Assembly: GCF_029338255.1 (NCBI RefSeq)
Contig: NZ_CP119787.1
Location: 2,619,631 to 2,683,630, forward strand
Length of the DNA stretch: 64,000 bases
Reading direction: 5' to 3'
Origin: Haloarcula halobia
GTDB lineage: Archaea > Halobacteriota > Halobacteria > Halobacteriales > Haloarculaceae
Positions 31,476-50,957 of the stretch are shown here, one piece after another (positions within the stretch are counted from its first letter, which is position 1; each line of letters begins with the position of its first letter). Below the pieces are notes generated by a model. That model worked only from the letters and a program-made list of their open reading frames with translations. It did not search any database and was not told the DNA's origin. Position numbers and translations under genes: made by a program.

Positions 31476-31624
31476 TATTCTGACTACCAACTGTTCCCTA
31501 ATTCAATAGTCCAATACTGGTAGCAGCTTTCGTATTCTGAGGCACCCACTCAGGCAGTTTAGAGATTGCAATGCTATCAGGAATCCTTTTTACACACCCA
31601 AAAGTAAGATGCTACCACTTCCCA

Positions 31625-33310
31625 ATGGTTGACCTTCCGGAACAGTTGTCTGATATCCAGCTTTCTCGACGAAATCGGATTGTCGTGTATTATCTCTCGG
31701 GTCTTGTGGTACTCGTCAGCGTGTACGCGTTGGCCTACAACGTCGCAATGGCACAGCTGGAAGGAGTCAACCAGTCGATATTTGCGTCGCTGGAGTTCGT
31801 CGTGCAGACGATGACCACGACCGGGTATGGGCAAGACGCGGGTTATTGGAGTCATCCGTTGATGTTTCTATTGGTCACGGTGACCCAAATTTCCGGCATA
31901 GCGATCGGCTTCTTTACGCTCCGGCTCATAATCATCCCGCTATTCACTGGCGCAGAGGTCAACCTCGACAACCGACTCACGGCAAAACAGGACCATGTCA
32001 TCATCTGCGAATACCGACGCGACTCTGCCGTGCTCCTTGAGGAGCTCAAAGAGCTTGGTATAGACTACGTCTTGATTTCCTCGTCCGAAGAAAACGCCAA
32101 GGACCTCTCCGACGACGGGTACTCCGTTATTCATGGCTCCCCACAGGACACGACAGCATTCGAGCGGGCTAGCATAGAGACGGCACAGGCGGTAATCACA
32201 GACGCCGGGAGTGCGAACGTTAATACCATCTTGACAGTTCGGTCGATCGACCCGGATATTGATATTATCACGCTTACTGATGACAGCGATATGCGAGATA
32301 TCCTGTTGGATACGGGCGCAGATACCGTTTTGTCCCCGCACGGTGTGCTCGGTCAACGGCTCGCCGAGAAGGCGGTCTCGTCGTTCAGCTCGGAGTTGAC
32401 GGACACGATCGACCTTGGTGGTGAAATAGAGGTTTCAGAAATCCCGGTCCAGCAGGGGAACCCGCTGATAGGGACACGAATCCGCAACTCGAAAATCAGA
32501 GAGGAGACCGGCGCAAACATCATCGGCGCGTGGATAGATGGGGAACTGCAACTCCCACCAAATCCGGACGCGATTATCCGCTCGAACACCGTGTTGCTCG
32601 TCTCCGGTGCACACGACGACCTAGAGGCGTTCAGTGATTTCATCCAACCGGCCCGCACACTCCGCAGACACGAGCGCATCATCATCGCGGGGCAAGGTGA
32701 AGTCGGCGAGGCCGCATTGGACGTGGTGTCTGAGGCTGGACTCGATGTCGTAACTATCGACGTCAATGACGGGGACAACGTGGATATCGTCGGGGATGCA
32801 GGGGCTAACGAGACGTTGGAAGAAGCCGGGATAGAGACCGCTGGCGCGATCATCGTCGGCCTTCCGAACGACTCGGACTCGCTCTTGACAACAGTGTTAG
32901 CACGGTCGCTGAACTCCGACATCGAGATACTCGCTCGGGTGAGTGACACTGACGCGACGCGGAAGGCGCTGAGTGCAGGTGCGGATTACGTGCTGTCAGT
33001 ACCACGGGTGAGCGCTCGGATGGTCGCCAGAGAGCTTCGGGGAGAGGATGTCCTCGCACCGGCGAGTCAAATTCGGTTGCTCCGCGTCCCCGCAACGCCC
33101 CTGGCAGGGTCGACACTCGCGGAGTCGGGCATTTACGAAAATACCGGCTGTCGTGTCATCGCTGTCGAAGACGATTCGGGCTTTACGAGTACGATCGACC
33201 CGCAACGGCGGTTCACCGGAGATGAACGAATCGTCCTCGTCGGCTCCGACGAGGCGGTCCAACAGTTCAGAAAGCGATTCGAGGATTCACCGGTGGAATC
33301 GGAGACCTGA
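31625..33310 (+). CDS. Potassium channel with two RCK (TrkA-type) domains
   Basis: The start is at the ATG at 31625 (MVDLPEQLSD), about 560 aa. TM1 is around VVYYLSGLVVLVSVYALAY. A pore helix and filter TMTTTGYGQ follow at about residue 70, and TM2 is around LMFLLVTVTQISGIAIGFFT. Then come two RCK units. The first has a degenerate dinucleotide loop (VIICEYRRDSA). The second has a good one (IIIAGQGEVGEAAL), and TrkA-C-like domains lie between and after them. It resembles MthK-type ligand-gated channels. It is convergent with the APC permease gene and opens the potassium island. Confidence 0.85.
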   Translation: MVDLPEQLSDIQLSRRNRIVVYYLSGLVVLVSVYALAYNVAMAQLEGVNQSIFASLEFVVQTMTTTGYGQDAGYWSHPLMFLLVTVTQISGIAIGFFTLRLIIIPLFTGAEVNLDNRLTAKQDHVIICEYRRDSAVLLEELKELGIDYVLISSSEENAKDLSDDGYSVIHGSPQDTTAFERASIETAQAVITDAGSANVNTILTVRSIDPDIDIITLTDDSDMRDILLDTGADTVLSPHGVLGQRLAEKAVSSFSSELTDTIDLGGEIEVSEIPVQQGNPLIGTRIRNSKIREETGANIIGAWIDGELQLPPNPDAIIRSNTVLLVSGAHDDLEAFSDFIQPARTLRRHERIIIAGQGEVGEAALDVVSEAGLDVVTIDVNDGDNVDIVGDAGANETLEEAGIETAGAIIVGLPNDSDSLLTTVLARSLNSDIEILARVSDTDATRKALSAGADYVLSVPRVSARMVARELRGEDVLAPASQIRLLRVPATPLAGSTLAESGIYENTGCRVIAVEDDSGFTSTIDPQRRFTGDERIVLVGSDEAVQQFRKRFEDSPVESET

Positions 33311-33322: not shown

Positions 33323-35554
33323 CTACTTCGGTTCTACTGTCTCGACAGGTTCCGTTTTCGTCGATGTACTGTCGTAGGGGCCCCGGACAATCCCAACGTT
33401 ACCCGTCGCCTGTTGACTGATTTGTTCAGCAATCGTACCGAATCGGAGTCGAGCTGCTTCGCCGCGTTCGGAGAGTCCGACGCAGATCGTGTCGTAGTCA
33501 CGTACTGCATCGAGAATAGTGTCTTCGATGTCATCGCTGACCAGAACCTTCGTTTCGAACTCGTCGGTCCTGATTCCTGCCCGTTCAGCGACGGCTGTGA
33601 TTGTCTCCTCACCGCGTGCGATTGGGTCGGCACTGGCGGTCGAACTCTGGACGTTCAGCAGTGTCGGGACTGTGTTGTCGAGGGTCGCAAACTCGACGGC
33701 TCTCCGGGCCGCTACAGGTGCGTGTGGTCCGGGTCCTGCCAGTGCAATGGGGCTGCCGATTCTCTCGTTGTGCAGCGTCACGAGTGACACTTCACACGGG
33801 GCCTGCTCGACGACGGGGTCGAGATTCGGCCCGAATACGGCCTCGTCTTTGGTGAGCGAGCCTTGCCAGCCGAGCAGGACCTGGTCGGCATCTTCCTCGA
33901 TGAGTGTTTCCAGAATCGTCTCTCCGACGTTCTGGCCGGTCACTGCGCGTGTCTGCAGCCTCACGTCCATCTCCGTCGCGTGCTGTTGGGCGGCTTCGAG
34001 CAGTTCCCGCTGGTGGGTGAGCCGCTCGGCTGCGACGTTCTGTTGTGGTGATTGGTCCGCGACCTGGATGACGTTGACAGCGACCAGTTCCGGTGTTCCA
34101 TCATTTGTGTGGGCCTTCGCCGTCGCTGCTCCGAGTCGGATGAGATCCTGTTGCGTGTCGGGGTTCGAAATCGGCACGACGACGCGATACGCGTCGGATA
34201 TATCAGGTTCCAACGCTTCCGTTATGAGTCCCGTCTCGAATCCCTGGTCTCTGGCGTAGACGATGTACCAGCCGGCTCCGAGCGCGACGATTCCGAGGCC
34301 AAGCAGAATGATGACGGTCGCCATCTGTGAGATGACGAGTACTGTCAGTAGTATCCCCAACACCGGAACGGCGGGGTAGAGCAGGTCCGGAATCCGGAAC
34401 GATGGGTCGTACGCGTCGGGGTCGGCACGTCGGAAGACGACGAGTGCGACGTGAACGAGCGAATACGAGACGAGGAAGCTGAAACTCGCCACCTCGGCCA
34501 GGAGAGAAACGATTGTTTCGACACCGAGGCCGGCGGTAACGAGCAACCCCGTGACAGCCCCGGTGACGATAATCGCCCGGTGTGGCGTCCCGAACCGGTC
34601 GTGCGTGACGTTCAGGTGCTCGCTCATGAGGTCGTCACGCCCCATGGCGAAATTGACCCGGGCCGCTGCGAGAATCGACGAGTTCGAACTCGAAATCGCT
34701 GCAATCGCGGCGGCAGCTACGATTGCGACCACGCCTATCGAACCGAGATAGACGACGGCGACATCTGAAACTGGGACGAGCGAATCGCCCAACGAATCGT
34801 AGGGGAGAACTCCAGTGCTGACGAGCATCACCAGCGCGTAGAGGATAGTCACCAGCACGACGGAGAGAAGCATCGTCAACGGAATGTTTCGACTCGGGTC
34901 TTTGACTTCGCCGGCGACCGTAGCGATAATTTCGAAACCGAGGAACGAGACGAACACGATGCCAGTCGTGGCGATAATCCCGCTCGGGCCAGTCGGAGCG
35001 AACGGCTCAAGATTCGCCGGGTCGATGAAGAACAGTCCGACAGCGACGTAGATCAGGACGATGACGGTTTCGGCCCCGATCATGACGTTCTGGAGTTGGC
35101 TGGATTCCTCCGTGCCGTAGTAGTTGACGCCGACTATCAGTGCGAGGCCGACGAGTCCAAGCAGGACGATGAACAGGCGGCCGTCGAGGAACGGTATCGG
35201 CGCGACGAGATACTGCCCGAAACCGATCATGTAGAACGCGCTCGCAAACATCAGGCCGCTCCACATTCCCCATCCGACGATACTCCCGAAGAACCCTCCG
35301 AGCGCCTGGTTGACGTAGTGGTAACTCCCACCGGCAATGGGCATCCCAGTAGCGAGTTCAGACAGTGAGAGAGCTGCAAGCAGGGCGACAAACCCCGCAA
35401 TCACGAACGAGAGCGAACTTGCGGGGCCAGCGCCCTCCGCTGCAATGCCAGGCAGGATGAAGATTCCAGCCCCGATCATCGTCCCGCCGCCGAGCGTCAT
35501 CGCTTCCAGGAAACCGATATTTCGTTCTAGTTCACCGCTACTACCGCCTGTCAT
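33323..35554 (-). CDS. APC-family permease with C-terminal UspA domains
   Basis: A 743-aa protein. The N-terminal 450 residues are a 12-helix APC (amino acid/polyamine/cation) transporter with GGGTMIGAGIFILPG in the first broken helix, ASAFYMIGFGQYL and NSSILAAARVNFAMGRDDLM. The rest comprises two UspA-like domains (starting YRVVVPISNPDTQQ and IGSPIALAGPGPHAP). A close architectural relative is encoded at 48720. Substrate cannot be told from sequence. The genomic setting suggests K+ or osmotic adaptation, perhaps with nucleotide sensing by the UspA part. Confidence 0.9.
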   Translation of the reverse strand: MTGGSSGELERNIGFLEAMTLGGGTMIGAGIFILPGIAAEGAGPASSLSFVIAGFVALLAALSLSELATGMPIAGGSYHYVNQALGGFFGSIVGWGMWSGLMFASAFYMIGFGQYLVAPIPFLDGRLFIVLLGLVGLALIVGVNYYGTEESSQLQNVMIGAETVIVLIYVAVGLFFIDPANLEPFAPTGPSGIIATTGIVFVSFLGFEIIATVAGEVKDPSRNIPLTMLLSVVLVTILYALVMLVSTGVLPYDSLGDSLVPVSDVAVVYLGSIGVVAIVAAAAIAAISSSNSSILAAARVNFAMGRDDLMSEHLNVTHDRFGTPHRAIIVTGAVTGLLVTAGLGVETIVSLLAEVASFSFLVSYSLVHVALVVFRRADPDAYDPSFRIPDLLYPAVPVLGILLTVLVISQMATVIILLGLGIVALGAGWYIVYARDQGFETGLITEALEPDISDAYRVVVPISNPDTQQDLIRLGAATAKAHTNDGTPELVAVNVIQVADQSPQQNVAAERLTHQRELLEAAQQHATEMDVRLQTRAVTGQNVGETILETLIEEDADQVLLGWQGSLTKDEAVFGPNLDPVVEQAPCEVSLVTLHNERIGSPIALAGPGPHAPVAARRAVEFATLDNTVPTLLNVQSSTASADPIARGEETITAVAERAGIRTDEFETKVLVSDDIEDTILDAVRDYDTICVGLSERGEAARLRFGTIAEQISQQATGNVGIVRGPYDSTSTKTEPVETVEPK

Positions 35555-35587
35555 GCCGTTCGAATGGAAACTATATTCATTAGAATC

Positions 35588-36307
35588 TCAGTCGATATCT
35601 CGGACGATAATCGTTGGTTTGTCGATTTTGTCGAGGACCGGGGTCAACACAGTCCCGATAATCCGCTCTCGAAGTGTTGGCTCCGTCTCACCGAGGATGA
35701 CCAGATCGTACTCGGCAGCCAGATTGACGATAGCCGACGTCGGGTCGTCGTCTTCTGCGAGGGTCCAATCAATCCGTTCGGGGTCCACGCCGTCTTCGGA
35801 GAGTCGATCGGCAGCACCACGGAGCATGAACTCACCCTGACTCGGGTCGGCTCCCGTAGAGCTAGCGTGAAAGAGGGTGACTGTCGCATCGTTCATCCGG
35901 AGTAGGTCACCGACGAGTGAGATGATTCGCTCCAGATTGACATCTCCCCGGAGCGGGACGAGAATTCGCTCTATCGAGCCGATTTCGTTCGGAACAAGCA
36001 CCGCACCACAGTCGTGTTGGTCTGCGACGCGGTCGATTGTGTCCTCGCGGTCTTTCGTGAACACGAGAACGCCCTCTACTTCGTGACCAGCACTGTCGAA
36101 CTGATTGACGATATCGTCCAGCCGCGATGCCGCCTCGGATTCGTGGTCAGCTTGGAGATGGGCCGGTGCTGTCTGTTTGGGAACCGGGTAGTACCCAAGG
36201 ACGACAACGTTGACCGGTCTGAGAAGCTGGAGAATCCCCTGGTCTGGTGGGTCTGTCACAGAGACATCCACCGGAACGAGAATCGTTGAATCACCGCTGA
36301 GGGGCAT
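35588..36307 (-). CDS. Universal stress protein, tandem UspA-like
   Basis: A 239-aa protein. The first half (TILVPVDVSVTDPPD) is a divergent UspA unit and the second (IERILVPLRGDVNLERIISL, ending LVILGETEPTLRERIIGTVL, then KPTIIVRDI) is a clearer one with the ATP-binding G-x2-G-x9-G(S/T) region altered. It lies upstream of, and in the same direction as, the APC permease gene (34-base gap), so it is probably co-transcribed. Confidence 0.8.
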   Translation of the reverse strand: MPLSGDSTILVPVDVSVTDPPDQGILQLLRPVNVVVLGYYPVPKQTAPAHLQADHESEAASRLDDIVNQFDSAGHEVEGVLVFTKDREDTIDRVADQHDCGAVLVPNEIGSIERILVPLRGDVNLERIISLVGDLLRMNDATVTLFHASSTGADPSQGEFMLRGAADRLSEDGVDPERIDWTLAEDDDPTSAIVNLAAEYDLVILGETEPTLRERIIGTVLTPVLDKIDKPTIIVRDID

Positions 36308-36713: not shown

Positions 36714-36831
36714 CACTGGCACGTGCAGGCGGTAGGGGGACCGATGGTAGAGACACTACCCAGTCATCGGCACGAAATCTCTCGGCTGTCGCTTGACCGA
36801 TACCAGGTGAACAGCCGGTGTTGAGGACCGG
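36714..36831 (-). pseudogene. Fragment of a short-chain dehydrogenase
   Basis: About 35 residues, PVLNTGCSPGIGQATAERF followed by RADDWVVSLPSVP, match the N-terminal NAD(P)-binding segment (TGxxxGIG) of SDR enzymes. Nothing of the rest of the enzyme follows, and the sequence around it has no coding character. It is a remnant. Confidence 0.45.
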
Positions 36832-36901
36832 CCGGGACACGTCTACTGTCCGTCGCCCCGGATAATAGGAATGCCGGTGACAGTGACCCACATCTGGTTC
36901 C

Positions 36902-37321
36902 TTATTTGGATGGTTTTTTCGAGATTACTTCTGGCGCTGGCTCCAGTGGGACGTGGTCCTGGGTATTCCGTCGTCGGAATGCGTCCATATTCGACCCGGG
37001 TAGGTAGAATATGTCGACGAATGACTCGGGCACAGTCTTGAACTCTTGTTCGCCACGCTCCTGAAACACCGTGTTGAGGAACTGTTCGATACGGCCTGGA
37101 TCTGTCGAGAACTGATACATCGCTGGCGTATAGAACTCTTTGGTGGGTTCCTCAGAGACAATCCTCGCCTCTAAGTCGCCCCCACGCTCGTGGAACAGTC
37201 CAACAAGTATGCGCTCGATTCTGCCAGGTTCTGGCGAGAACTGGAACGTCGCCGGGACGTAGAACTCGGGTGATGACGCCTCTTTGCTCGTTGGGTTTGT
37301 CTCTTCAGTTGCCATTGACAA
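36902..37321 (-). CDS. Hypothetical protein with three internal repeats
   Basis: A 139-aa protein containing EFYVPATFQFSPEPGRIERI and EFYTPAMYQFSTDPGRIEQF, each followed by a similar helix (LVGLFHERG, LNTVFQERG), then a diverged third unit starting DIFYLPGSNMDAFRR. No family is recognised. Its 5' end lies 38 bases from the target duplication of an IS6-type element, so its promoter may have been altered by the insertion. Confidence 0.6.
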   Translation of the reverse strand: MSMATEETNPTSKEASSPEFYVPATFQFSPEPGRIERILVGLFHERGGDLEARIVSEEPTKEFYTPAMYQFSTDPGRIEQFLNTVFQERGEQEFKTVPESFVDIFYLPGSNMDAFRRRNTQDHVPLEPAPEVISKKPSK

Positions 37322-37366
37322 TCTCTGTGTAATAAGTTCTCTGAGTTGATATAATTATGTTTATTT

Positions 37367-38109
37367 GGCACTGTCTAGTTCTGAACCTCCTCCGCTGGCG
37401 TTCGTCCGTCGAGTGCCTGGTTCGGTCGTTCGTGGTTGTAGTGGTGTCTAAAGCGTCGTATCCACTGTTTCGCGCTGGATTGACTGCCCCTCCAGAAGGA
37501 ATGGAAGCGGTCGATTCGCATGGTCACAGTCTGGAACCACTTTTCGATGTGGTTCCGGATTCGGTAGTCAAGCCGACCGCTCAAATCGTGACGTGAGAGG
37601 GCAGTCAGGTAGCCGCCAGCATCGACGAGAAACTCTGTCTCGGCGACATCGTGTTTCTCGGTGAGCCGATGCAGGAACGCCGCCGCGGGGTCAGTCCCGC
37701 GGCGGCTGAACACGTCAACTTCGAGCAGCAGTTTTGATTCGGTGTCGACAGCGGCGTACAACCACTTTTTCTCGCCGTCAACCTCGATCTGTTTCTCATC
37801 GACCGCGACCCGCGACGGCGACGCCGTCGGCGGGTCGCTCTGAGCCTCGGACAGCGTATGCACCCAGTTCCAGACCGCACCGTGAGAGCGATCGACACCC
37901 AGCAGGTCTAAGATCGCCACCGTCTCCCTGATCGACAGCCCCGCCGTGTGGAGACGCACTCCAAATCGCCGGACGGGTGTCGGGGTGCGCTCGTTCTCCC
38001 AAACGTCTTGACTGTCCTCCTCTAACGTTTCTCTGAGCAGGTCTGCGAGTGACATGAACACCTCTCGCTACGGCCTGCTCACTTCTCAATCCCTCAACTA
38101 GACAGTGCC
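37367..38109 (-). mobile_element. Intact IS6-type insertion sequence with 8-bp target duplication
   Basis: A 743-bp element bounded by perfect 14-bp inverted repeats, GGCACTGTCTAGTT (37367-37380) and AACTAGACAGTGCC (38096-38109). The flanks carry the same 8 bases, GTTTATTT, at 37359-37366 and 38110-38117. An 8-bp duplication and a single transposase ORF are typical of the IS6 family. Positions on the left end may be off by one base. The perfect ends and duplication imply recent insertion. Confidence 0.85.
37375..38061 (-). CDS. IS6-family transposase
   Basis: A 228-aa DDE transposase. SRVAVDEKQIEVDGEKKWLY gives the first Asp, ETEFLVDAGGYLTAL the second. The C-terminal helix (RNHIEKWFQTVTMRIDRFHS, then RRFRHHYNHERPNQALDGRT) holds the final Glu and the usual HYNxxRPxxxL motif. 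The N-terminal segment (TAGLSIRETVAILDLLGVDR) is a helix-turn-helix. The stop codon lies inside the left inverted repeat. The length is normal for haloarchaeal IS6 enzymes. Confidence 0.9.
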   Translation of the reverse strand: MFMSLADLLRETLEEDSQDVWENERTPTPVRRFGVRLHTAGLSIRETVAILDLLGVDRSHGAVWNWVHTLSEAQSDPPTASPSRVAVDEKQIEVDGEKKWLYAAVDTESKLLLEVDVFSRRGTDPAAAFLHRLTEKHDVAETEFLVDAGGYLTALSRHDLSGRLDYRIRNHIEKWFQTVTMRIDRFHSFWRGSQSSAKQWIRRFRHHYNHERPNQALDGRTPAEEVQN

Positions 38110-38344
38110 GTTTATTTCATATTATCACAAAACTTGATATACAGTCTCGACTAAGTGTGTGGGCTTCGGATGCATGAAGCACTCAAAGCGGGTGCCGCTG
38201 CCGTTCGAGACATTCCCCGGTGACTTCCATGCTCTCGTCAGTGACTCTGACAGTCACCTCGTAGCGGGCACAGGTGTCGGTGTTCTATCTACTTCTCTGT
38301 ATCTCGCACGCCCCACGATGACCTACCGAGAAACCATCAAAAAA

Positions 38345-38532
38345 GTGGCTGTTGAATACAGAGTGTCAGCCTTGTTTAGACGCGGTGCATATCGTCCTCT
38401 ACGGCTTGTACCCAAACACCGAAACCGAGTCGAGAGGCACTCCCGGGCTGGTTCTGTTTGCCCGATACAGACACTAACCGACGCCTTCAGGTGCGTCTAA
38501 ACAAGGCCCAGAGGGTGTATTCAGCAGGGGCT
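38345..38532. repeat. MITE-like element with imperfect inverted ends of about 39 bp
   Basis: The two ends pair over about 39 bases, including the perfect 15-mers GCCTTGTTTAGACGC (38369-38383) and GCGTCTAAACAAGGC (38493-38507) and the outer strings TTGAATACA and TGTATTCAG. The interior of about 110 bp has no gene. The ends suggest a non-autonomous derivative of an insertion sequence. No target duplication is evident. The rest of 38118-38600 holds no supported gene. Confidence 0.55.
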
Positions 38533-38600
38533 ATTTTCGAGTCACGGAGAATAATCCGTATGTGATGGTATCTCATAGGTTCTTGTAGCATTCATCAGAG

Positions 38601-39227
38601 TCATTCGTCGGGATACTCCAACAGTAGATCCCCGACGAAGACATACGGGTGATCGAAGGCGCTTACTTCACCGAAGGTGACCGGCTCATCCGGTGGCTGG
38701 ACTGCTCCGAGCGACCTGCCATCCATTCGTGCAGTCGCCCGTGTAACGACGCGTACCCTCGGCGTCTTGAGATGGCCAAACTTCCCGGTTTCCGTGTGTC
38801 GCCCAAACATCCGTCTGTGCAGCGGCTCGGGGAGAGACCGTTGCATAAGTGTCAATACTCGGCTCATCACGGAGTCATCAACTGTCCCCTCGAGTTCGAT
38901 GGTTGCCCCCTCACTCACGTTGACGGTAATGTCGATGTGGTCGGTGGTCCATTCCCACTCCATCTCGGCCATTATTGACCGACTCCAATCGTGGAAGGCG
39001 GCAATTTCAGCATCGGCACCTTCTGTGTCATAATAGAGGATCCGCGTGTCGTCTGGTTCGACGACCCAGAACTCCCTGTATCCGCCGAGGTCGGTCGGCG
39101 TCGATTCGAAGTCGTACAACCAGATACTGTGTCCGCTCTCGAAGCAGATACCTGGTAATATCCGTCCACTGAATGGCTGGAGAGATTCGTCGCTGAGACG
39201 TTGATCGATGGTAGTATTTTGTGCCAT
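38601..39227 (-). CDS. Hypothetical acidic protein (208 aa)
   Basis: No family is recognised. The protein is soluble, with a beta-rich N-terminal half (DLGGYREFWVVEPDDTRILY) and an amphipathic central helix (AFHDWSRSIMAEMEW). An Arg-rich segment (RVRVVTRATARMDGRS) precedes the C-terminus. It stands alone between a MITE-like repeat and the broken cyclase gene. Confidence 0.55.
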   Translation of the reverse strand: MAQNTTIDQRLSDESLQPFSGRILPGICFESGHSIWLYDFESTPTDLGGYREFWVVEPDDTRILYYDTEGADAEIAAFHDWSRSIMAEMEWEWTTDHIDITVNVSEGATIELEGTVDDSVMSRVLTLMQRSLPEPLHRRMFGRHTETGKFGHLKTPRVRVVTRATARMDGRSLGAVQPPDEPVTFGEVSAFDHPYVFVGDLLLEYPDE

Positions 39228-39302
39228 GGTATCATACTACGATGAAAAACCAAATTAAGTTTCTGACTCGATTTGGAAGCCTGTCACCTCTCGTATATGG
39301 TT

Positions 39303-39392
39303 GGCCGATATGCGCCCTGTCTCTTCCACGCGAGTCCTGACAGGACTTGGATAGACAGTGCGTGCGAAGCTTTCTATGACACGCTCTAACGA
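39303..39392. repeat. Dispersed repeat end, related to 51238-51310
   Basis: This stretch begins CGATATGCGCCCTGT and ends TTTCTATGACACGCTCT. A shorter related copy at 51238-51310 has CGATACGCGCCCTGT and ATTCTATGACACGCTCT. Reverse-oriented GTGTCATAGAA strings lie at 36546 and 42567. These look like terminal pieces of one mobile element family. Confidence 0.45.
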
Positions 39393-39442
39393 TCGAACTC
39401 CCTCTCTGGCGGCAGTAATCTCAGAAAACAGGATGGATTCTC

Positions 39443-40004
39443 GTGACTAAGCCAGATCCGTTACGCGTAGAGTACATAACCGTAGACGAACTCATCGATT
39501 TCATCACGTATGCGGTCGAGAGTATCAGTCTCGGATTCGATCGATGGGGTGATGACCACATCCGTGGGCCAGGGCTGTATTTTGTCATTGTCACTGGCGT
39601 GCACTCCGGCGAATATGCCGACCCGATGAGTGGCAGTCACTGGCCGACCGAGGACTGCCACGTCGTGACTGAAGATCTCGACAGGTTTGTCACGTCAGCC
39701 CGAGCGGTCGGGCACACAAACGACGGTGCAGTCATAATCAGTACGGATGGAACCATCCAGGAGCAAATGGTCCGCATCAAAAGCCAGAGCGGCAATGGGA
39801 CTACAGACAAAAAGCCAGGCTATCGAGTACGCCGACTGGATGGGTACAAAACACATGAGCGCAATCGAGGTCTCCGTCCGTGAAGAGGTGGTAGCCACGG
39901 TTACACTCAGCGAAGAGAACGGCCGAATGTCCATATTCAAGGACGGTGACTACGACGACTATCTACGCGAAAAATTGGGTGGTGTCTGGCGGTCGAGAGA
40001 GTGA
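39443..40004 (+). pseudogene. Frameshifted diadenylate cyclase (DacZ/DisA_N-type)
   Basis: Starting at GTG 39443, the first frame contains SISLGFDRWGDDHIRGPGLY and DGAVIISTDGTIQEQMVRIK, the DGA motif region of DisA_N cyclases. About position 39785-39795 the family sequence moves to the next frame, which gives IEYADWMGTKHMSAIEVSVR and continues to the TGA at 40002-40004. The GT(K/R)H segment is the second nucleotide-binding motif. One missing base explains the split. The product would make c-di-AMP, known to control K+ transporters. At about 187 aa it also appears shorter than typical archaeal DacZ. A sequencing error or programmed frameshift is possible. Confidence 0.7.
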
Positions 40005-40077
40005 ATGTATGCCGCCTATAGCTATCCTTCAGACTGGAGAGGGTCTTTATGAGCAAGTCTATCGAAGCGGTAGTATG

Positions 40078-40354
40078 GGAGGAGACGACGATCAGGGTCT
40101 TACAACGGACGACATTTATTACGAATAGGTTTTTGAGCCATACACTGCGGGGGAACTCGTCTCGTCTTTTGATGTCCCGAAAGACTGCGTTCGCAAGCTT
40201 ATGCAACGGCTCTCTAGCTCGGGGAAGCTTCCAAAAAAGAAATCCAAGCCAAACCAGGCCATCTGGATTCGAGACGCATCAGTTCAAGAGTGTGCAAACT
40301 GCAGGTACAAATATGAAGTCAAATTTCATCACCCGGTGTGGAGAACAGGTATAG
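40078..40354 (+). pseudogene. Broken copy of the HTH-zinc-ribbon regulator at 42143
   Basis: In one frame the translation reads MGGDDDQGLTTDDIYYE, an in-frame TAG at 40126-40128, then VFEPYTAGELVSSFDVPKDC and SSGKLPKKKSKPNQAIWIRD, CANCRYKYEVKFHHP. This parallels the intact protein at 42143 (VPYTTQELADRIGTS, CPHCDYEFEVKFLHP). The last CxxC pair is lost through a small deletion: the other frame supplies RCGEQV and a stop. A nonsense codon plus a 3' deletion make it a pseudogene. Confidence 0.55.
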
Positions 40355-40372
40355 CGAGGGAGACTCCCACTC

Positions 40373-40798
40373 ATGAACGTCCTTGTTCCCGTCCGATATC
40401 CGCTCACAGAGACCAACAAACAGGCGATCCGGCGAGGGATTGCGCTTGTAGATGCCGATGACGATTCGGAACTCCTCATTTTCCACATGAACGAGGTGCA
40501 GAAAGATCAGCGTATCAATCGACAGTCGTTACGCGACGCCGTTGAATCCGCGTTCGACGGACTTACTGCAAGTTACGTCGTGCGCGACGGGTTTTTTGCT
40601 GAAGAGGCGATTATCGAAGCGGCGATCCAGTTCGACACGGATTGTATTGTCCTGAGCAAATATCGTCGTGACCGGTGGAAACAGCTTCTCGAAAAGATTC
40701 TCGACCTGGATCATGATCCTGAACAACTCATTCACGAAACGACGGGAATCACAATCGAAGTCATTACTGAGAGCGACCACGCGTCCAGCAACGCATGA
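40373..40798 (+). CDS. Universal stress protein (UspA-like)
   Basis: A 141-aa single UspA domain beginning MNVLVPVRYPLTETNKQAIR. AAIQFDTDCIVLSKYRRDRW occupies the position of the ATP-binding loop, but the classic GxxG is absent, so nucleotide binding is doubtful. Its TGA overlaps the ATG of the potassium channel gene at 40795. Close coupling suggests that it modulates the channel or reports on its state. Confidence 0.75.
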   Translation: MNVLVPVRYPLTETNKQAIRRGIALVDADDDSELLIFHMNEVQKDQRINRQSLRDAVESAFDGLTASYVVRDGFFAEEAIIEAAIQFDTDCIVLSKYRRDRWKQLLEKILDLDHDPEQLIHETTGITIEVITESDHASSNA

Positions 40799-41994
40799 GT
40801 ACGTCACTACTGTCACGAGTACGGGATCACTGGATTGGCTGGCAAGCCCTCGGACTCCGTGTGACTATCACCCTTACTGCTGCTGTCGCATTACTGTCCG
40901 TTGTGACGGGAATCGCAAATATCAGTGCGCAGTCTGTTGCCGGTCCTATCGCCGAATTCATCCCACCCGCAATCCAGCGCACGGCTGGATTTACCGGGGC
41001 ATTAACCGGTTTTCTCATGATCGGGAGTGCCTACGGAATGCGTCGCAGGCTTCGAATTGCCTGGTACTCGACTGTCATTCTATTGCCTGTCACGGCACTC
41101 CAGGGCGTGTTGCAGTCGAGTCCGCTCTCGGTGCCACTGATCGTTCTCTCCATCCTGGCGATGCCGAACGTCCTGTACAATCGCCGGCAATTCGACCGAG
41201 CGGTGGAACTGACGACTGGTCAAATCGCTGCCGGGATGGCGATCATCGGAGCACAGGTATATGGAACCGCTGGAGCCTACGCGCTCCGCGAAGATTTCAC
41301 TAATGTCAGTACACTCGTGGACGCGTTCTACTACACGCTGGTTACCGCCAGTACGGTCGGATACGGTGATGCTGCGCCGACATCACAGGTAGCACGGCTG
41401 TTCGGGATGTCCGTCGTCATCATCGGAACAGCCAGTTTCGCGGTTGCACTCGGAACACTCTTGGGGCCACTCATCCAAGCACGCTTTGCGAAAGCACTCG
41501 GGAGAATGTCTGAAGACGAACTTGGACTCCTCAACGATCATATACTCATCCTCGGATACAGTGATATCGTTCAGGTGATTCTCGACGACATCCAGAACCG
41601 TGGCGATGTACTCGTCGTCTCGCCCGACAGAGAGGCTGTGCGCGAACTAACTGATCGGGGCGTTAATGCACTCACTGCGGAGCCAGATGATGAGGATTCT
41701 CTCCATCAGGCCGGCGTTGAGCGTGCCCGGACAGTTATTGTCGCAACAAACGACGACGCAGCCGATGCGTTGACAATACTGACCGTTCGACAACTCAATC
41801 CCGAGATTGATATCCTCGCTATTGCCACCAACCGCGAGAACATGAAGAAACTGGAACGTGCAGGTGCGAATACCGTCATTAGTCCGGCAGTCATCGCCGC
41901 ACAGCAACTCGTGGAATCAGCTCTCGGAGTCGATTCCGATACCGGATTTGACCTTCTGAATGAGCAGCGTGATGATGAGCCAGATTCCTCATGA
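40795..41994 (+). CDS. Voltage-gated-type potassium channel with RCK domain
   Basis: A 399-aa protein. About five hydrophobic segments precede the pore (for example FTGALTGFLMIGSAYGM and GQIAAGMAIIGAQVYGTAGA). The selectivity filter is ASTVGYGDAAPTS (about residue 190), followed by a last helix (MSVVIIGTASFAVALGTLLG). The cytosolic part is one RCK/TrkA-N domain (HILILGYSDIVQVILDD, with the Gly-rich loop partly altered). It therefore resembles six-helix K+ channels rather than the two-helix channel at 31625. It overlaps the UspA gene by four bases. Confidence 0.85.
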   Translation: MSTSLLSRVRDHWIGWQALGLRVTITLTAAVALLSVVTGIANISAQSVAGPIAEFIPPAIQRTAGFTGALTGFLMIGSAYGMRRRLRIAWYSTVILLPVTALQGVLQSSPLSVPLIVLSILAMPNVLYNRRQFDRAVELTTGQIAAGMAIIGAQVYGTAGAYALREDFTNVSTLVDAFYYTLVTASTVGYGDAAPTSQVARLFGMSVVIIGTASFAVALGTLLGPLIQARFAKALGRMSEDELGLLNDHILILGYSDIVQVILDDIQNRGDVLVVSPDREAVRELTDRGVNALTAEPDDEDSLHQAGVERARTVIVATNDDAADALTILTVRQLNPEIDILAIATNRENMKKLERAGANTVISPAVIAAQQLVESALGVDSDTGFDLLNEQRDDEPDSS

Positions 41995-41999
41995 CCCCA

Positions 42000-42100
42000 T
42001 CAGAAAATTTTGCTAAGGATTGAGTGCGCTGTAGGGAGCGTACCACGGAGCAGTGCTCCACCGAACCCGAGACTGATGAGTCCCATCATAACGGCGAACT
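42000..42100 (-). pseudogene. C-terminal fragment of a paralogue of the membrane protein at 47721
   Basis: The minus strand reads QFAVMMGLISLGFGGALLRG and TLPTAHSILSKIF before a stop. The intact protein at 47721 ends QFTVLWGFISLGFGGALLRI and TLPPAIQLVSTVI. An upstream in-frame stop leaves only about 33 codons, so this is a relic of a duplicated gene. Confidence 0.6.
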
Positions 42101-42142
42101 GTGATCATCTCACTCTCCAACCTCACCTACCTTATTCGAGAC

Positions 42143-42484
42143 TTACTGGATGTTATTCACTTGCCTGCCACAGTTTGGACAATACCTGACAGAAGATAAT
42201 ACGGGGTGGAGAAACTTCACTTCGAATTCGTAGTCACAGTGTGGACAGGTATTATCGGGCGGTTCACGCATCCAAATTCGGAGATTGGGTTCCGGTTCCT
42301 TCTTTCGAACCTTCCCCGCCCCGGCGAGACGTCGAAGTATCGACCACATATTACCGAGAGACGTTCCGATACGGTCTGCCAGTTCTTGCGTGGTATAGGG
42401 TACGAACGGTTCCATCTCCTCGTAGACTGTTTCCTCTGAGGGCTGGTCGGAATCCCGATTGTCCGTTGGTGGGTCTGTAGGCAT
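42143..42484 (-). CDS. Winged-helix and zinc-ribbon regulator
   Basis: A 113-aa protein. An acidic N-terminal arm is followed by a helix-turn-helix (FVPYTTQELADRIGTSLGNM, then RRLAGAGKVRKKEPEP as the wing) and a C-terminal zinc ribbon with CPHCDYEFEVKF and YCPNCGRQ. The composition is that of a small haloarchaeal transcriptional regulator. A decayed copy is at 40078. Its position among potassium genes suggests local regulation, but no target is visible. Confidence 0.7.
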   Translation of the reverse strand: MPTDPPTDNRDSDQPSEETVYEEMEPFVPYTTQELADRIGTSLGNMWSILRRLAGAGKVRKKEPEPNLRIWMREPPDNTCPHCDYEFEVKFLHPVLSSVRYCPNCGRQVNNIQ

Positions 42485-43474: not shown

Positions 43475-43963
43475 ATGGGTATGAAGATTTTTGAGACACA
43501 GCTTCCCGGCGTCGGACGGCGTTACGAGGTTTCATTTCCCGACGGAGGGACGTTCACAATCGTTATCCACAACGACGGAACACGAACGGCGTTTTGGCAA
43601 GATGACCCGGACGGCGACGGCGAAAAACTGTTCACGACGAGTGAGCGCGATGCTGAGAAAATTGCGGAAATCTTCGAAGGCGTCTTTTTCCAGCCCGTCT
43701 CCGACGAGCTCGACGACGCGCTCTCGGGCGCTCGTATCAAATGGGTGGCTATCCCAACGGGTTCACCGGTCACTGGACAGACGATCGGTGATGTCGGTAT
43801 CCGAACGAGGACGGGAATCTCTGTCCTCGCTGTCGAACGCGATGACCAGATAATCGCAAACCCGACCCCGAACACGCAGCTATTAGCGGATGACGTTCTC
43901 GTCGTCGTCGGTGATGACGATGCACATCAAGCGCTTGAAGAGCTGCTCTCGAAACTCGAATAG
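43475..43963 (+). CDS. KhtT-like regulatory subunit (RCK_C/TrkA-C domain)
   Basis: A 162-aa protein; an ATG at 43481 is an equally good start. The N-terminal half (ETQLPGVGRRYEVSFPDGGT) is the KhtT-type N-domain. The C-terminal half (IGDVGIRTRTGISVLAVERD, then LLADDVLVVVGDDDAHQALE) is an RCK_C ligand-binding domain. In Bacillus, KhtT controls the K+/H+ antiporter KhtU and binds c-di-AMP. The next gene in the same direction, 59 bases on, is a CPA2 antiporter, so this pair is a KhtTU-like system. Confidence 0.8.
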   Translation: MGMKIFETQLPGVGRRYEVSFPDGGTFTIVIHNDGTRTAFWQDDPDGDGEKLFTTSERDAEKIAEIFEGVFFQPVSDELDDALSGARIKWVAIPTGSPVTGQTIGDVGIRTRTGISVLAVERDDQIIANPTPNTQLLADDVLVVVGDDDAHQALEELLSKLE

Positions 43964-44022: not shown

Positions 44023-45222
44023 GTGGCTTCGACGAGTCTCATACTTTCGGCCGGTGTATTTCTTACAGTTCTTACGTTGGGCGGCTTGATTGCCGTTCGA
44101 ATCGGCCAATCGGTCATTCCGGCGTACATTCTCGTCGGTGTTCTCATCGGTCCCTTTGCACCCTCAATTGGTGGCGTCTCTCTCACCGTCGTGGACTCGA
44201 CGGAGTTCATTCGGCTGTTGGCCGACCTAGGTGTGATATTTCTGTTGTTCTTTGTCGGCCTGGAGTTGAGCCTGACGTCATTACTCCAGAAACGCTCGCA
44301 GTTCCTCCGAGCTGGAGCAATCGACATCGGCGTCAGTTTCCCACTCGGTATCATTGTCGGTTTTCTCTTCGGGTTCACGCTTCTCGAATCACTGTTCATC
44401 GGCCTCATCGCGTTCAATTCCTCAACGGTCATTATCGCTAAATCCCTCCTTGATTTAGAATGGATCGTCAATACAGAGAGCGAGGCGATTCTCGGTGTGA
44501 TCGTCATCGAGGACATACTCACTGCTGCCGTATTCGCCGTTCTTTCGGCAGTTCTGCTTGGCGCTGCCGACATTGCTTCACTCGGTCGGACACTCGGACA
44601 GGCAGCAGTTGTGTTGGTGGCACTGTCGCTGTTCGCCTACTACGGTGGGGAGTACCTCGACCGAGCGTTCGACATCCAGTCGAGTGAACTGTTCCTCCTC
44701 GGCGTCCTCGGTCTGACAGCGCTCGTCGCGGGACTCGGCTTCGCCGCCGGCGTCAGTGACGCCATCGTGGCGTTCCTCGTCGGCCTGGCGTTCGGACAGA
44801 CGTCCCACGTCGAGCGAATCGAGACCAAACTCGCTCCGAGTCGTGACCTCTTCGCGGCAGTGTTCTTCTTCGTCATCGGCCTCCAGACCGACCCTCGGCT
44901 CGTGCTCTCGGTCGCGGGATTCGTTCTCGTTGCCGTTATGGTCACGGTGGTTGGACAGATCCTGAGCGGGTTCTTCGCCGGTCGGAGTTTCGGCCTCTCG
45001 ATCGAGCAGGCATCGCGGATGGCGAGTGCGCTCGTTCCCCGTGGAGAGTTCTCGCTGGTGATTGCAGCATTTCTCGTCACTACGGGGACCACTGACGCTC
45101 TCAGGGAGACGATTCCAGCGTTCACTGTCGGCTACGTCTTGCTCACGAGTATCCTTGGTACGATACTAATGCGGAACGCACATCTCATCGAACAGGTTGC
45201 ACGAACATTCTCGCCAGAGTGA
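44023..45222 (+). CDS. CPA2-type K+/H+ antiporter (KhtU/KefB-like)
   Basis: A 399-aa polytopic membrane protein starting at a GTG. About 12 hydrophobic segments are visible. GVLIGPFAPSIGGVSL, LGVIFLLFFVGLELSL and VIVIEDILTAAVFAVLS are the conserved segments of CPA2 antiporters, with acidic residues in the transport core. There is no soluble C-terminal domain; the separate KhtT-like protein upstream fills that role. It would expel K+ (or Na+) in exchange for protons under osmotic or pH stress. Confidence 0.85.
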   Translation: MASTSLILSAGVFLTVLTLGGLIAVRIGQSVIPAYILVGVLIGPFAPSIGGVSLTVVDSTEFIRLLADLGVIFLLFFVGLELSLTSLLQKRSQFLRAGAIDIGVSFPLGIIVGFLFGFTLLESLFIGLIAFNSSTVIIAKSLLDLEWIVNTESEAILGVIVIEDILTAAVFAVLSAVLLGAADIASLGRTLGQAAVVLVALSLFAYYGGEYLDRAFDIQSSELFLLGVLGLTALVAGLGFAAGVSDAIVAFLVGLAFGQTSHVERIETKLAPSRDLFAAVFFFVIGLQTDPRLVLSVAGFVLVAVMVTVVGQILSGFFAGRSFGLSIEQASRMASALVPRGEFSLVIAAFLVTTGTTDALRETIPAFTVGYVLLTSILGTILMRNAHLIEQVARTFSPE

Positions 45223-45230: not shown

Positions 45231-45716
45231 TCACGTGCCGCTTTGGATCAACTCATTCAGCGCTGCGTGTTCCTCTCGTGTTCCGATGGCGACGAGGATG
45301 TCCTCGCTGTTGAGTTCGAAATCAGATGCTGGATTCGGTATTGTTTCAGTGTCCCGCTGGACGGCGATTACCGTCGTGCCTGTGTGGCTTTTGATTTTGC
45401 TTTCCTCTAGTGTCTGTCCTGCGATAGGGGAGTCCACTGAGATGTCGATCCATTCGATGATGGCATCACCGAGCGGGACTGTTAGTTCGTTCACGTTCAC
45501 CGACTCGAAGTACGCCCCTTCGAGAATCGACCCGAGCTTGTTCGCTTCATCTCCCGCCAGATCAAGGAGTTTCTCACCGTTCGCTTCTCGGTTGGTTCGT
45601 CTGTAGAGTTCACAGCGCCCATCATGATGGACGACGACCGATGCAAGGCTGTCATCGGCTAGTTCGAGATCGAATTTACGGCCGACCCCCGGGAGGTCAG
45701 TCTCGTAGACGGTCAT
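45231..45716 (-). CDS. Second KhtT-like regulatory protein
   Basis: A 161-aa protein with the same layout as the one at 43475: ETDLPGVGRKFDLELADDSL at the N-terminus and LEESKIKSHTGTTVIAVQRD, then LNSEDILVAIGTREEHAALN at the C-terminus. It is convergent with the antiporter gene. Two regulators flanking one antiporter suggest either a hetero-oligomer or a second, distant transporter target. Confidence 0.75.
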   Translation of the reverse strand: MTVYETDLPGVGRKFDLELADDSLASVVVHHDGRCELYRRTNREANGEKLLDLAGDEANKLGSILEGAYFESVNVNELTVPLGDAIIEWIDISVDSPIAGQTLEESKIKSHTGTTVIAVQRDTETIPNPASDFELNSEDILVAIGTREEHAALNELIQSGT

Positions 45717-46174: not shown

Positions 46175-47512
46175 TCAAAGGGCGTTCAGGACCTCCGAGA
46201 CGATATTAGTTCTCACAAAGAGCACAACGTGGTCGCCGGTCTCAATTATGGTATCTCCTCGGGGGACAACGAATTCATGGTCGCGGGTAACTGCCCCAAT
46301 GACGACGGCGGATGGAAGGTCAGCGACGCTCTCTTCGATTGGACGATTAGTGAGAACACTTTCTTCGCCGATTTCGATCTCGATAACCTCTGCCTGGCGA
46401 CCTTCGATGAGCGAGAGATTTTCGATCTCCCCCTCCTGAGTAAAGCGAATAATCTCTTCGGCAGTTACTTTTCGGGGGTTGACTGCAACGTCGACGCCAA
46501 CCGCCTCAAACAATGTTGCGTATTCCCCGTCTTCAACGATTGCGACCGTCCGCTGAACACCGATATTCTCGGCTAGTAAGGTAACCAGGAGATTCTTCTC
46601 ATCACTGTCTGTCGCTGCGATGAGTGTTCCAGCCTGGTCAATATTTTCGTTGAAGAGGAACTCTGCATCAGTTGCATCGTGGTTGAGTATCAAGGTGTGC
46701 TGTAATGTCTCGGCCAGCTCCTGAGCCCGATCTGCATCCTGTTCGATCAACCGTGGCTCGATATTCTGTTCTTCCAGTCGGTTTGCGGTATAATATCCGA
46801 TATCGCTGCCGCCGACGATGACAATATCGTCGCTCCCGTCTGGAAGATTCGGTGAGGCAGCCGTTCTCGAAAAAGCCTGAATGCTTGTCGGCTCACCGAT
46901 GACGATTACCCTATCTCCGGCCTTGATAGCGGTATCTCCGTCCGGGATTATGATGTTCCCATCTCGGGCGAGCGCAGCAAAAGTCAGTGCTTCGAATCGG
47001 TCGGCCTCCGCAACAGTTTGACCGACAAGTTCGTTGTCTCCGGTAAGCTCAAACTCAGCCATCTGGACAAGGCCACTGGCGAATGTCTCAGCATCAATTG
47101 CGGATGGCAGTCCAATGATACGAGCGACGTTGTCTGCTGTCTGGAGATTCGTCGAGACCATGAAGTTGACACCGAAAGCTCCCTCGTACTGCTTCCACGT
47201 CTTGAAAAACGTCTTATCACGAACTCTGGCAATTGTAAAGGCGTCACTGACAGTTTTCGCTGTTCCACACGTGACTAGGTTCGTCTTGTCGTTGTCAGTA
47301 CTCGCAACCAGCATATCCGCCTCTGTTATATTGGCTTGTTGTAGTGTCTCCAGAGAACTCCCATCTCCTTTGATCGGCAGCACATCTGTAGAATAGGTGA
47401 GTTGTTCGACCTTTTCCGGGTTGGTGTCAATAACGACGACATCGTGGTCTGCAGCAAGACTCGTAGCGATATTCGCTCCGACCTCGCCAGCGCCGACGAT
47501 TACTACTCGCAT
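46175..47512 (-). CDS. trkA: TrkA, potassium uptake regulatory protein
   Basis: About 445 aa with the start at the ATG at 47512 (MRVVIVGAGEVGANIATSLA); an ATG at 47533 is in frame seven codons upstream. It has two TrkA-N Rossmann domains, VVIVGAGEVG at the start and IVIVGGSDIGYYTANRL at about residue 226, each followed by a TrkA-C domain (ELVGQTVAEADRFEALTFAA and TNRPIEESVADLPSAVVIG). This is the normal TrkA layout of archaea. It binds NAD(H)/ATP and gates TrkH-type K+ uptake. No trkH gene lies in this window, so its partner must be elsewhere. Confidence 0.9.
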   Translation of the reverse strand: MRVVIVGAGEVGANIATSLAADHDVVVIDTNPEKVEQLTYSTDVLPIKGDGSSLETLQQANITEADMLVASTDNDKTNLVTCGTAKTVSDAFTIARVRDKTFFKTWKQYEGAFGVNFMVSTNLQTADNVARIIGLPSAIDAETFASGLVQMAEFELTGDNELVGQTVAEADRFEALTFAALARDGNIIIPDGDTAIKAGDRVIVIGEPTSIQAFSRTAASPNLPDGSDDIVIVGGSDIGYYTANRLEEQNIEPRLIEQDADRAQELAETLQHTLILNHDATDAEFLFNENIDQAGTLIAATDSDEKNLLVTLLAENIGVQRTVAIVEDGEYATLFEAVGVDVAVNPRKVTAEEIIRFTQEGEIENLSLIEGRQAEVIEIEIGEESVLTNRPIEESVADLPSAVVIGAVTRDHEFVVPRGDTIIETGDHVVLFVRTNIVSEVLNAL

Positions 47513-47720
47513 CGACTCCCGGGAACCGTTCATACGTGACTAATAGATGACTTCTCCTAAAGGGTGTTCCGCACGTATCGCTAGTGGAGAGGGATTTCCC
47601 GCTCCTGAACGTACTGTCCAAACACTGAACAGGTGCCCGTGAACCACCTCAAATCAATCCCTGAGGCACTTGGCTTGCTCCGCCTGTAGAGTTCTCCACC
47701 GCTACAAGTGATGAGCCAGA

Positions 47721-48134: not shown

Positions 48135-48291
48135 GGACTTCTTCTTTCGGTATTAGTAAGGAACGGATATTAATATACTGGAGAAGTAGGTAATATTCTT
48201 CTCTCCGAACTCAAAGATAGAGAAGTACGCTAGTGGTCTGTACTATCCGGTAGATACACACTCTTAACAGATAGTGGCTGTACTGACCAGT

Positions 48292-48723
48292 ATGAGCAGT
48301 GAGTCTACGGACGAGGAACTCCTCGCACACGTGCTTCTTCCCGTCGCTAACGAGGATGACGCGTTGGCAACGGCGGAGGCTCTCAAACCCTACGGACCGA
48401 ATCATGTGACAGCCCTCCATGTCGTAGAGAAAGGGGGTGGTGTACCGGATAAGTCACCAGTCGAACAATCCGAACAACTGGCCGCGGAATCGTACGATGC
48501 CGTCCGGTCCGTATTCCCCGACGCCAACGACCACACCGCCTACGGGCGGGACGTAGCCGACGAGATCTTCAAAGCTGCCGACGAGGTTGATGCCAGTGCT
48601 ATTGCTTATCGAGCCCGTGGCGGGAACCGGCTTATGGATTTTCTCTCCGGTGACATTTCACTGAAGCTGGTCACAAAGGCTGACCGCCCCGTCATTGCCC
48701 TTCCCCGTGAGGAGGAAAAATGA
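48292..48723 (+). CDS. Universal stress protein (UspA-like)
   Basis: The start is taken at the ATG at 48292 (MSSESTDEELLAH). The 143-aa UspA domain has HVLLPVANEDDALATAEALK and ends with GGNRLMDFLSGDISLKLVTK, followed by ADRPVIALPR. The ATP-loop GxxG is replaced. The stop overlaps the ATG of the APC permease gene, so the two are translationally coupled, paralleling the UspA/APC pair at 35588/33323. Confidence 0.8.
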   Translation: MSSESTDEELLAHVLLPVANEDDALATAEALKPYGPNHVTALHVVEKGGGVPDKSPVEQSEQLAAESYDAVRSVFPDANDHTAYGRDVADEIFKAADEVDASAIAYRARGGNRLMDFLSGDISLKLVTKADRPVIALPREEEK

Positions 48724-50957
48724 GCGACGAAGACCTCGCCAAGGACCTCGGACCACTGGCGGCCCTGACCATCGGCGTCGGAACGATGATCGGGGCAGGC
48801 ATATTCGTCCTTCCCGGGGAGGCTATCCTCAAGGCTGGATCATTCGCATCTGTAGCGTTCATCCTCGGCGGCGTGATTGCCATGTTCACGGCGCTGTCAG
48901 CCAGCGAACTCGGCACCGCAATGCCCCGATCGGGTGGGGCGTACTACTATGTCAATCACGCTCTCGGCCCCATGTTTGGCTCAGTCGCCGGATGGGCCAA
49001 CTGGCTTGGACTGGCCTTCGCCAGCGCCTTCTACATGGTCGGATTCGGCCGCTACATTGCCCGTATCTTCGGACTCTCCGGTAGTGTCGGCGTCGGTCCG
49101 ATATCGATTACCGTGGTGAAATTGATAGCGCTTGTCGGTGGGGCCTTCTTCGTCCTCATCAATTACGTGGGGGCGAAGGAAACCGGCCGATTACAGAACA
49201 TCATCGTTGTCTTGCTTATCGGTATCCTCACTGTGTTCACGTTCCTCGGGACGCTTAGAGCCGAGCCGTCGAACCTCCCGGCTGCTACTGACGTCGTCAC
49301 TACGCTGGAAACCACGGGACTCATCTTCGTCTCCTATCTCGGCTTCGTCCAGATTACGAGCGTGGCCGAGGAGATCAAAGACCCCGGAAAGAACCTGCCG
49401 CGGGCGGTCATCGGCAGCGTCGTCATCGTGACCGTCATCTACGCTCTCGTGCTGGTGATCATGAGCGCGGCCGTCCCACAGGGATTCATCGCGGACATCA
49501 TCAGTTCTGACGCCGAGAACCCCATCGCCGTCGTCGAGGTTGGTAACTACATCCAAGGGGCCGCAATGGGGGGTGCACTCCTGTTCGGCGGCTTGCTCGC
49601 TACCGCTTCCAGTGCGAACGCCTCCATCCTCGCGTCCTCGCGTATCAACTTCGCCATGGGCCGTGACCGGATCGTCACACCAGCACTCAACGAGATACAC
49701 CCGAAGTACGGGACACCATACAGAGCAATTGGCATCACCGGCGGGCTCATTCTCCTCTTCATCATCATCGGGGACCTGACACTGCTCTCGGGTGCTGCAT
49801 CGGGACTACACCTCATCATCTACGGGTTGCTGAATCTTGCACTCATCGTCATGCGTTACGTGAACCCCGATGAGTACACTCCAGATTTCGTGGTTCCGCT
49901 GTATCCCCTGATGCCGATTCTCGGTGTCGTTCTCTCCTTTGCGTTGCTAGTGTTCGTCGCCGGCGACGCCCTGTTGCTCTCCTTTGGCATTGCTGCCGCA
50001 GCAGTGCTGTGGTACGCACTCTACGCCCGTTCACGAACCGAAAAACAGGGTATCTTGTCGAAGCACATCATCTCACGGTCCGGAGAGATGCCCGACGCGG
50101 CTGTCAGCGCGGCCACTGGAGTCCAGCCGGACGGCGGGCAGTACCGCGTGATGGTGCCACTGGCCAACCCTGCACATGAGACGGACCTCATCACACTGGC
50201 CAGCGCTATCGCCAAACAGCGCGGCGGGAAGGTGGTTGCTACCCACATTGTCACGGTGCCCGACCAGACGGCGCTCTCGGCCGCGGCCGACCGGTCCGAC
50301 GAGATAGACAAGAGCTCACAGCACTTACTCAACAACGCCCGCGAGGACGCTGAAACGTTCGGCGTCGATGTCGAGACACACACTATCCTGTCACACAAAT
50401 CCTACGAGGCCATCTTTGACGCCGCCCGCACACATACCGCCGACCTCGTCGTGATGGGATGGGGGCCGGACTCACACGGATCACCAGGACGGGCCGAATC
50501 GGCAATGGACGAACTGACCGAGGCAGTCCCCTGTGACTTCCTGGTCCTCCGTGACCGCGGGTTCGACCCCTCGCGCATCCTGCTTCCCACAGCTGGCGGT
50601 CCTGACTCTGAGCTGTCAGCCGACATTGCGAAGCTGCTCCAGTCCGAATACGACTCCGAGGTGACGCTGCTCAACGTCAACGACGACCGTGAGGCAGGCG
50701 AGCAGTTCCTCCAAGATTGGGCGGCCGACCAGGAATTAGAGGACGCCGAACTCCTCGTCAAATCCGGTGACATCGAGACGGCGATCCAGAACGCATCTCA
50801 TGACGCCACACTCCTGCTCATCGGCGCGACCGAGGAGGGGCTACTTCGCCGACTCGTCTCCAGATCGCTCGTGCTGGACATCGTTGACGACGTGGAGTGT
50901 TCGGTCCTACTCGCGGAGAAACACCGCAACCGTGGACTGCTCGAACGGCTATTCTGA
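48720..50957 (+). CDS. APC-family permease with C-terminal UspA domains
   Basis: A 745-aa protein. The 12-helix transporter part has GVGTMIGAGIFVLPGEAILK, then ASAFYMVGFGRYIARI and NASILASSRINFAMGRDRIV. It is followed by two UspA-like domains (QYRVMVPLANPAHETDLITL and PSRILLPTAGGPDSELSADI). Domain order and length match the protein at 33323, although the sequences differ enough to be old paralogues. Substrate is unknown. It probably contributes to osmotic or K+-linked transport with UspA-based sensing. Confidence 0.9.
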   Translation: MSDEDLAKDLGPLAALTIGVGTMIGAGIFVLPGEAILKAGSFASVAFILGGVIAMFTALSASELGTAMPRSGGAYYYVNHALGPMFGSVAGWANWLGLAFASAFYMVGFGRYIARIFGLSGSVGVGPISITVVKLIALVGGAFFVLINYVGAKETGRLQNIIVVLLIGILTVFTFLGTLRAEPSNLPAATDVVTTLETTGLIFVSYLGFVQITSVAEEIKDPGKNLPRAVIGSVVIVTVIYALVLVIMSAAVPQGFIADIISSDAENPIAVVEVGNYIQGAAMGGALLFGGLLATASSANASILASSRINFAMGRDRIVTPALNEIHPKYGTPYRAIGITGGLILLFIIIGDLTLLSGAASGLHLIIYGLLNLALIVMRYVNPDEYTPDFVVPLYPLMPILGVVLSFALLVFVAGDALLLSFGIAAAAVLWYALYARSRTEKQGILSKHIISRSGEMPDAAVSAATGVQPDGGQYRVMVPLANPAHETDLITLASAIAKQRGGKVVATHIVTVPDQTALSAAADRSDEIDKSSQHLLNNAREDAETFGVDVETHTILSHKSYEAIFDAARTHTADLVVMGWGPDSHGSPGRAESAMDELTEAVPCDFLVLRDRGFDPSRILLPTAGGPDSELSADIAKLLQSEYDSEVTLLNVNDDREAGEQFLQDWAADQELEDAELLVKSGDIETAIQNASHDATLLLIGATEEGLLRRLVSRSLVLDIVDDVECSVLLAEKHRNRGLLERLF

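Follow-up and report, generated by a model that had tools for sequence, protein, structure and literature searches.

A short haloarchaeal diadenylate cyclase gene, probably a recent pseudogene, in a potassium island of Haloarcula halobia

Between 39443 and 40004 on the forward strand of the 64,000-nucleotide stretch of Haloarcula halobia DNA analysed here (the window, part of the chromosome-size haloarchaeal contig G000:C1 of 3,354,654 bases), a single diadenylate cyclase (DAC) protein is encoded as two halves, split over two reading frames and surrounded by genes for potassium transport. The question raised by this locus is whether the gene is dead, miscounted in the assembly, read through a frameshift or expressed as two chains, and to which kind of DAC it belongs. 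With good confidence, we regard it as a recent pseudogene of a short haloarchaeal DAC that belongs to a mobile K+ island; in its intact form the gene is most likely a K+-linked source of c-di-AMP.

Against a short-DAC profile built from seven intact relatives, the first frame gave E 2e-55 and the second E 3e-31, with the two matches meeting at ~39802/39807; such a two-half match to a single DAC profile is far above chance and largely bears out the sequence-only reading, in which the DGA and GTKH segments were placed in different frames.

39443..39883, forward strand: broken short DAC, first half; opened by a GTG, homologous as far as ~39802, DGA motif, profile positions 2-120
39747..40004, forward strand: second half of the broken short DAC; +1 frame, own ATG at 39747, homology from ~39807, WMGTKH motif, profile positions 121-184
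39796..39825, forward strand: frame-step zone in the variable linker; includes a run of five A

In the first half the codons begin at 2 mod 3, in the second at 0 mod 3, so the net step is +1 (equally -2) and not the one missing base that had been proposed; it also lies slightly downstream of 39785-39795, the site first suggested, being located between ~39796 and ~39825 in a linker that varies within the family. Further stops are absent from both halves. With the Pfam DAC model (PF02457) the second half scored 24 bits against a cut-off of 27 and the first half was unmatched; the DGA and GTRH-type motifs of this model are both present, though in two frames. As the copy lacks one uninterrupted DAC reading frame, it is filed as a pseudogene of the family. 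When the halves were compared with six relatives, the differences fell mainly at third codon positions, as they do between working copies, which indicates that the loss is recent. The idea of strongly relaxed evolution was dropped because its signs were slight: changes at conserved sites number 4 in 40 columns in the window copy, where intact copies average 1.4 and reach up to 6, and unique residues 9 in 100 against 0-9 in the seven relatives. So slight an excess speaks against a pseudogene.

The seven intact relatives are plasmid-borne, single-frame proteins of 183-191 residues, annotated as diadenylate cyclases, and in the aligned intact copies the DGA and GTRH-type motifs are conserved, with variants. 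All seven match Pfam DAC (at best with E 1.9e-9; 26.6 bits for the first), some of them only near the cut-off, and some other short DACs pass the cut-off of 27 (34.9, 33.1 and 27.6 bits). The DacZ model NF041371 has a cut-off of 430 bits, whereas the short relative L003 scored 16.2 bits and the best of the seven reached E 0.00082; the short family thus falls outside this model, and by sequence it is a family of ~185 residues distinct from DacZ. The family profile finds matches in 161 of 391 Halobacteria genomes and in 41 of 86 genera (E 1e-10, fragments counted, each genome thus holding at least part of the gene), and, within the host's genus, in 7 of 32 genomes (E 1e-3); the family is patchy, partly on plasmids, and poorly covered, its detection by Pfam being weak. 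A search of viral contigs with the 85-residue second half confirmed no relatives. Eight loci (L017, L018, L019, L022, L026, L028, L037 and L041) hold adjacent or fused pairs of short DACs, and in all eight the upstream member keeps DGA but shows WMSAK(H/Q) where WMGTKH would be expected, which suggests an asymmetric pair of one catalytic and one degenerate member.

To view the fold, the AlphaFold model of an intact relative, L014 from Halobaculum gomorrense, was used to stand in for the broken protein; L014 is the closest intact relative, sharing 77% identity with the window halves across 175 columns, and its model has a mean pLDDT of 86. The model matches CdaA and DisA (Foldseek, best E 1.7e-6), and VIA-align against DAC-domain structures gave Z values up to 12.9 (138 residues, rmsd 3.4), the first non-DAC rows in its list standing at Z 3.1. 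A DAC fold is thus predicted for the closest intact relative. The resemblance to the DAC domains of bacterial CdaA, DacM/CdaM and DisA lies in this predicted fold (Z 12.9 and 12.1) and in the motif region GTRH...SEE.G, which the profile aligns; identity in the structural alignments is 14-21%, and in the 185-residue frame of the short family neither a CdaA-type membrane part nor a DisA C-terminal part is seen. With DacZ (HVO_1660 of Haloferax volcanii; NF041371), which according to the available part of PMC6741144 produces c-di-AMP in vitro, the short family shares a DAC domain, DGA, a GxRH-type motif and a haloarchaeal host. However, DacZ extends over 270 positions with an N-terminal part and is near-universal, with matches in 388 of 391 Halobacteria genomes (E 1e-60), in contrast to the patchy and partly plasmid-borne short family. 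The same text reports that the dacZ gene is located with mscS, an arrangement also visible by eye in L001. DacV to DacY are likewise archaeal DACs; the portion of PMC6741144 available lists methanogens or unnamed Euryarchaeota as representatives of DacV to DacX and gives DacY/CdaZ an N-terminal PK_C domain; going by these descriptions, the short family may be distinct from them. In the open-licence literature, including the accessible parts of PMC6741144, PMC8305020 and PMC10243994, a second, short DAC of haloarchaea was not found described.

The host genome holds an intact short DAC at C1:655441-655989, recovered by the family profile and flanked by genes for a tRNA methyltransferase and a histidine kinase, and an intact DacZ at C1:2328469-2329278. 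The intact second copy for which the sequence-only reading had proposed to look is thus present in the genome. The window gene is not an additional copy of the housekeeping DAC but a member of the separate short family. Pfam alone was abandoned for the survey of host DACs, as it missed the intact short copy.

The surroundings of the gene agree with the K+ island in which the sequence-only reading had placed a DAC, perhaps "now silenced", and both points are supported by homologues, fold and context.

31571..33310, forward strand: protein of the island K+ channel type; TrkA_N and TrkA_C domains, two of each
33323..35554, reverse strand: amino-acid permease with USP domains
35588..36307, reverse strand: universal stress protein
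37375..38061, reverse strand: IS6-type (ISH17-like) transposase
40075..40354, forward strand: winged-helix/zinc-ribbon relic; in-frame TAG at 40126-40128, zinc-ribbon end damaged
40373..40798, forward strand: full-length small protein resembling USP; matched weakly by Pfam Usp
40795..41994, forward strand: K+ channel with TrkA_N (RCK) domain; 92% identity to the Halosimplex carlsbadense copy (L013)
42143..42484, reverse strand: intact winged-helix/zinc-ribbon gene; 82-88% identity to copies in three other K+ islands
43475..43963, forward strand: TrkA_C (RCK_C) protein
44023..45222, forward strand: cation:proton antiporter
45231..45716, reverse strand: second TrkA_C (RCK_C) protein
46175..47533, reverse strand: TrkA
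48274..48723, forward strand: universal stress protein
48720..50957, forward strand: amino-acid permease with USP domain; 95.6% identity to the Haloarcula hispanica plasmid copy (L004)

The transposase thus lies upstream of the broken DAC, RCK_C (TrkA_C) domains occur in four proteins of the island, and USP domains in four with a weak fifth. Four of the five K+ gene classes counted (TrkA, TrkH, RCK channel, TrkA_C and antiporter) are present within 10 kb; TrkA is there, but TrkH went undetected around the DAC (29700-49700), and in this L003, L004 and L013 differ. Of 17 other ORFs of the island region, 13 found homologues among 11 relatives, with 92-96% identity for the best, and 4, the transposase among them, were unmatched. 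ORFs at 36902-37321, 38601-39227 and 42872-43282 have neither a Pfam match (E 0.001) nor a counterpart in the 11 relatives, and to the left of the island a long ORF (28937-30499) has a weak match, just under the cut-off, to a phage-integrase N-terminal domain. No tRNA genes were found in the window. In the winged-helix/zinc-ribbon relic the part after the stop is still recognisable (E 9.6e-14), and its orthologue in L013 (Halosimplex carlsbadense; 4983-5345) is open. Small proteins of this type recur in the K+ islands L003, L004, L005, L012, L013 and L081, and the protein is a candidate island regulator.

In a tree of 72 rows the window DAC falls inside a clade of 8 rows (support 100/98), and this clade lies mostly in plasmid or island clusters of K+ genes. 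At least two K+ classes within 10 kb were counted in 9 of 10 clade rows, or, with identical DAC proteins counted once (L003 = L012, L004 = L081), around 7 of 8 distinct proteins, a count that includes the window. Only L014, the nearest relative of the window DAC, departs from this: its locus has no counted class, which speaks against the island reading. Among 50 further short-DAC loci spanning 12 kb or more (48 distinct DAC sets) none had two or more classes and 7 had one, and the corresponding counts for 31 random control regions, drawn from five genomes of the genus including the host, were none and one. The K+ reference proteins came from L001, L003-L008 and the window, which leaves L012-L015 as the clade loci that contributed none; three of these four have at least two classes, although L012 shares its DAC protein with L003. 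Three further plasmid islands agree by annotation. In L155, a Halorientalis marina plasmid, a short DAC of another clade lies among K+ genes by annotation, and the K+ link is thus not exclusive to the window clade; this DAC (~7644-8171) is itself unannotated and broken by an in-frame stop.

The strongest competitor of the pseudogene, although a good deal less probable, is a sequencing or assembly error, the gene being intact in the organism and the step a base-count error in the linker. There is a single frame step between the halves, which counts against a pseudogene, the coding character of both halves is kept, and the five-A run in the zone makes a miscount possible. However, the neighbouring relic has both a stop within its frame and damage at its end, independent lesions beyond one miscount which make an error in the DAC less likely; in addition, all 13 comparable island genes are essentially full length and the genome is 99.97% complete. 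Programmed +1 frameshifting to yield the full-length enzyme, an option raised in the sequence-only reading, could draw on the conservation of both halves and their freedom from further stops, yet we consider it very improbable. A codon-by-codon comparison found the seven closest relatives to be single-frame through the linker, so that the shift site is not kept; the first frame has no stop codon at the junction, and a slip on the A run would more readily be -1, into the third frame. Comparison with homologous islands, a course the earlier reading had favoured, did reveal intact DACs there, but none of the copies seen has the same step. This includes the other disrupted ones, whose breaks lie at other sites or are due to a stop: L052 combines an in-frame stop near the same linker with a different frame change, L060 and L066 change frame near position 41, L010 and L159 lack the 5' part, and L086 and L087 are fragments. 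Equally improbable is a split enzyme whose two ORFs give chains that assemble, since for all that the second ORF has its own ATG and each half one motif, none of the relatives examined is split in this way and each ORF has an out-of-frame tail where the two meet.

In the pseudogene reading, a short stand-alone DAC would have arrived with the mobile K+ island and the window copy would have been lost through one frame step in the linker, beside an IS6-type element and another gene that is likewise broken, while the host retained its intact short paralogue elsewhere and its housekeeping DacZ. From sequence and predicted fold, the short family probably makes c-di-AMP, and the intact gene would most likely do so near the RCK_C (TrkA_C) and USP domains of island proteins, the putative receptors being channels, TrkA, antiporters and permeases; K+ uptake and efflux could thereby be coupled to the messenger. 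Bacterial c-di-AMP receptors listed in the available part of PMC10243994 include RCK_C and USP domains, TrkA, TrkH, KtrA, KdpD and the antiporter CpaA, and the island resembles the bacterial control of KtrA, TrkA, CpaA and KdpD in having RCK_C and USP domains of receptor type; by analogy, we infer that its archaeal RCK_C and USP proteins may bind c-di-AMP. Unlike in bacterial K+ control, the synthase gene itself adjoins the putative receptors. Overexpressed DacZ kills Haloferax volcanii, as stated in the part of PMC6741144 available, and this offers a possible reason for the loss of an extra synthase.

Whether a short DAC could stand in for DacZ is brought into focus by one genome. DacZ was over the cut-off in 44 of 45 chosen genomes with a short-DAC match (a set that includes G005, which has a short-DAC relic only), and no match over the cut-off was found in G152, a single contig of 2,656,678 bases which is 98% complete. 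G152 holds two short DACs (L164 and L165), each at most ~3 kb from sodium/proton-exchanger proteins with TrkA_N, and one of them also adjoins a USP gene. At E 1e-60 a DacZ match is also missing from the drafts G329 and G385 (89 and 92% complete), in which no convincing short DAC was found; G152 is a single case, and a short DAC occurs in 41% of genomes regardless. It is conceivable, and we put this forward tentatively, that the plasmids and islands of haloarchaea carry their own short c-di-AMP synthase, able to replace the essential DacZ, together with RCK_C and USP proteins of receptor type, so that a mobile K+ island would bring its own messenger circuit; excess c-di-AMP being harmful, the synthase would be silenced after transfer, as in the window and in Halorientalis marina, and the transporters kept, and in some genomes the class would have become a tandem pair in which one DAC is normal and the other has an altered motif.

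The broken copy is in itself ordinary, and the wider interest lies in the intact family, which is apparently undescribed and would constitute a mobile second source of c-di-AMP beside receptor-type proteins. The single contig of G152, with no DacZ match, makes the replacement of an essential enzyme by the short class testable, and, if the short family does make c-di-AMP, the islands would provide a test bed for archaeal TrkA, channel, antiporter and USP receptors.
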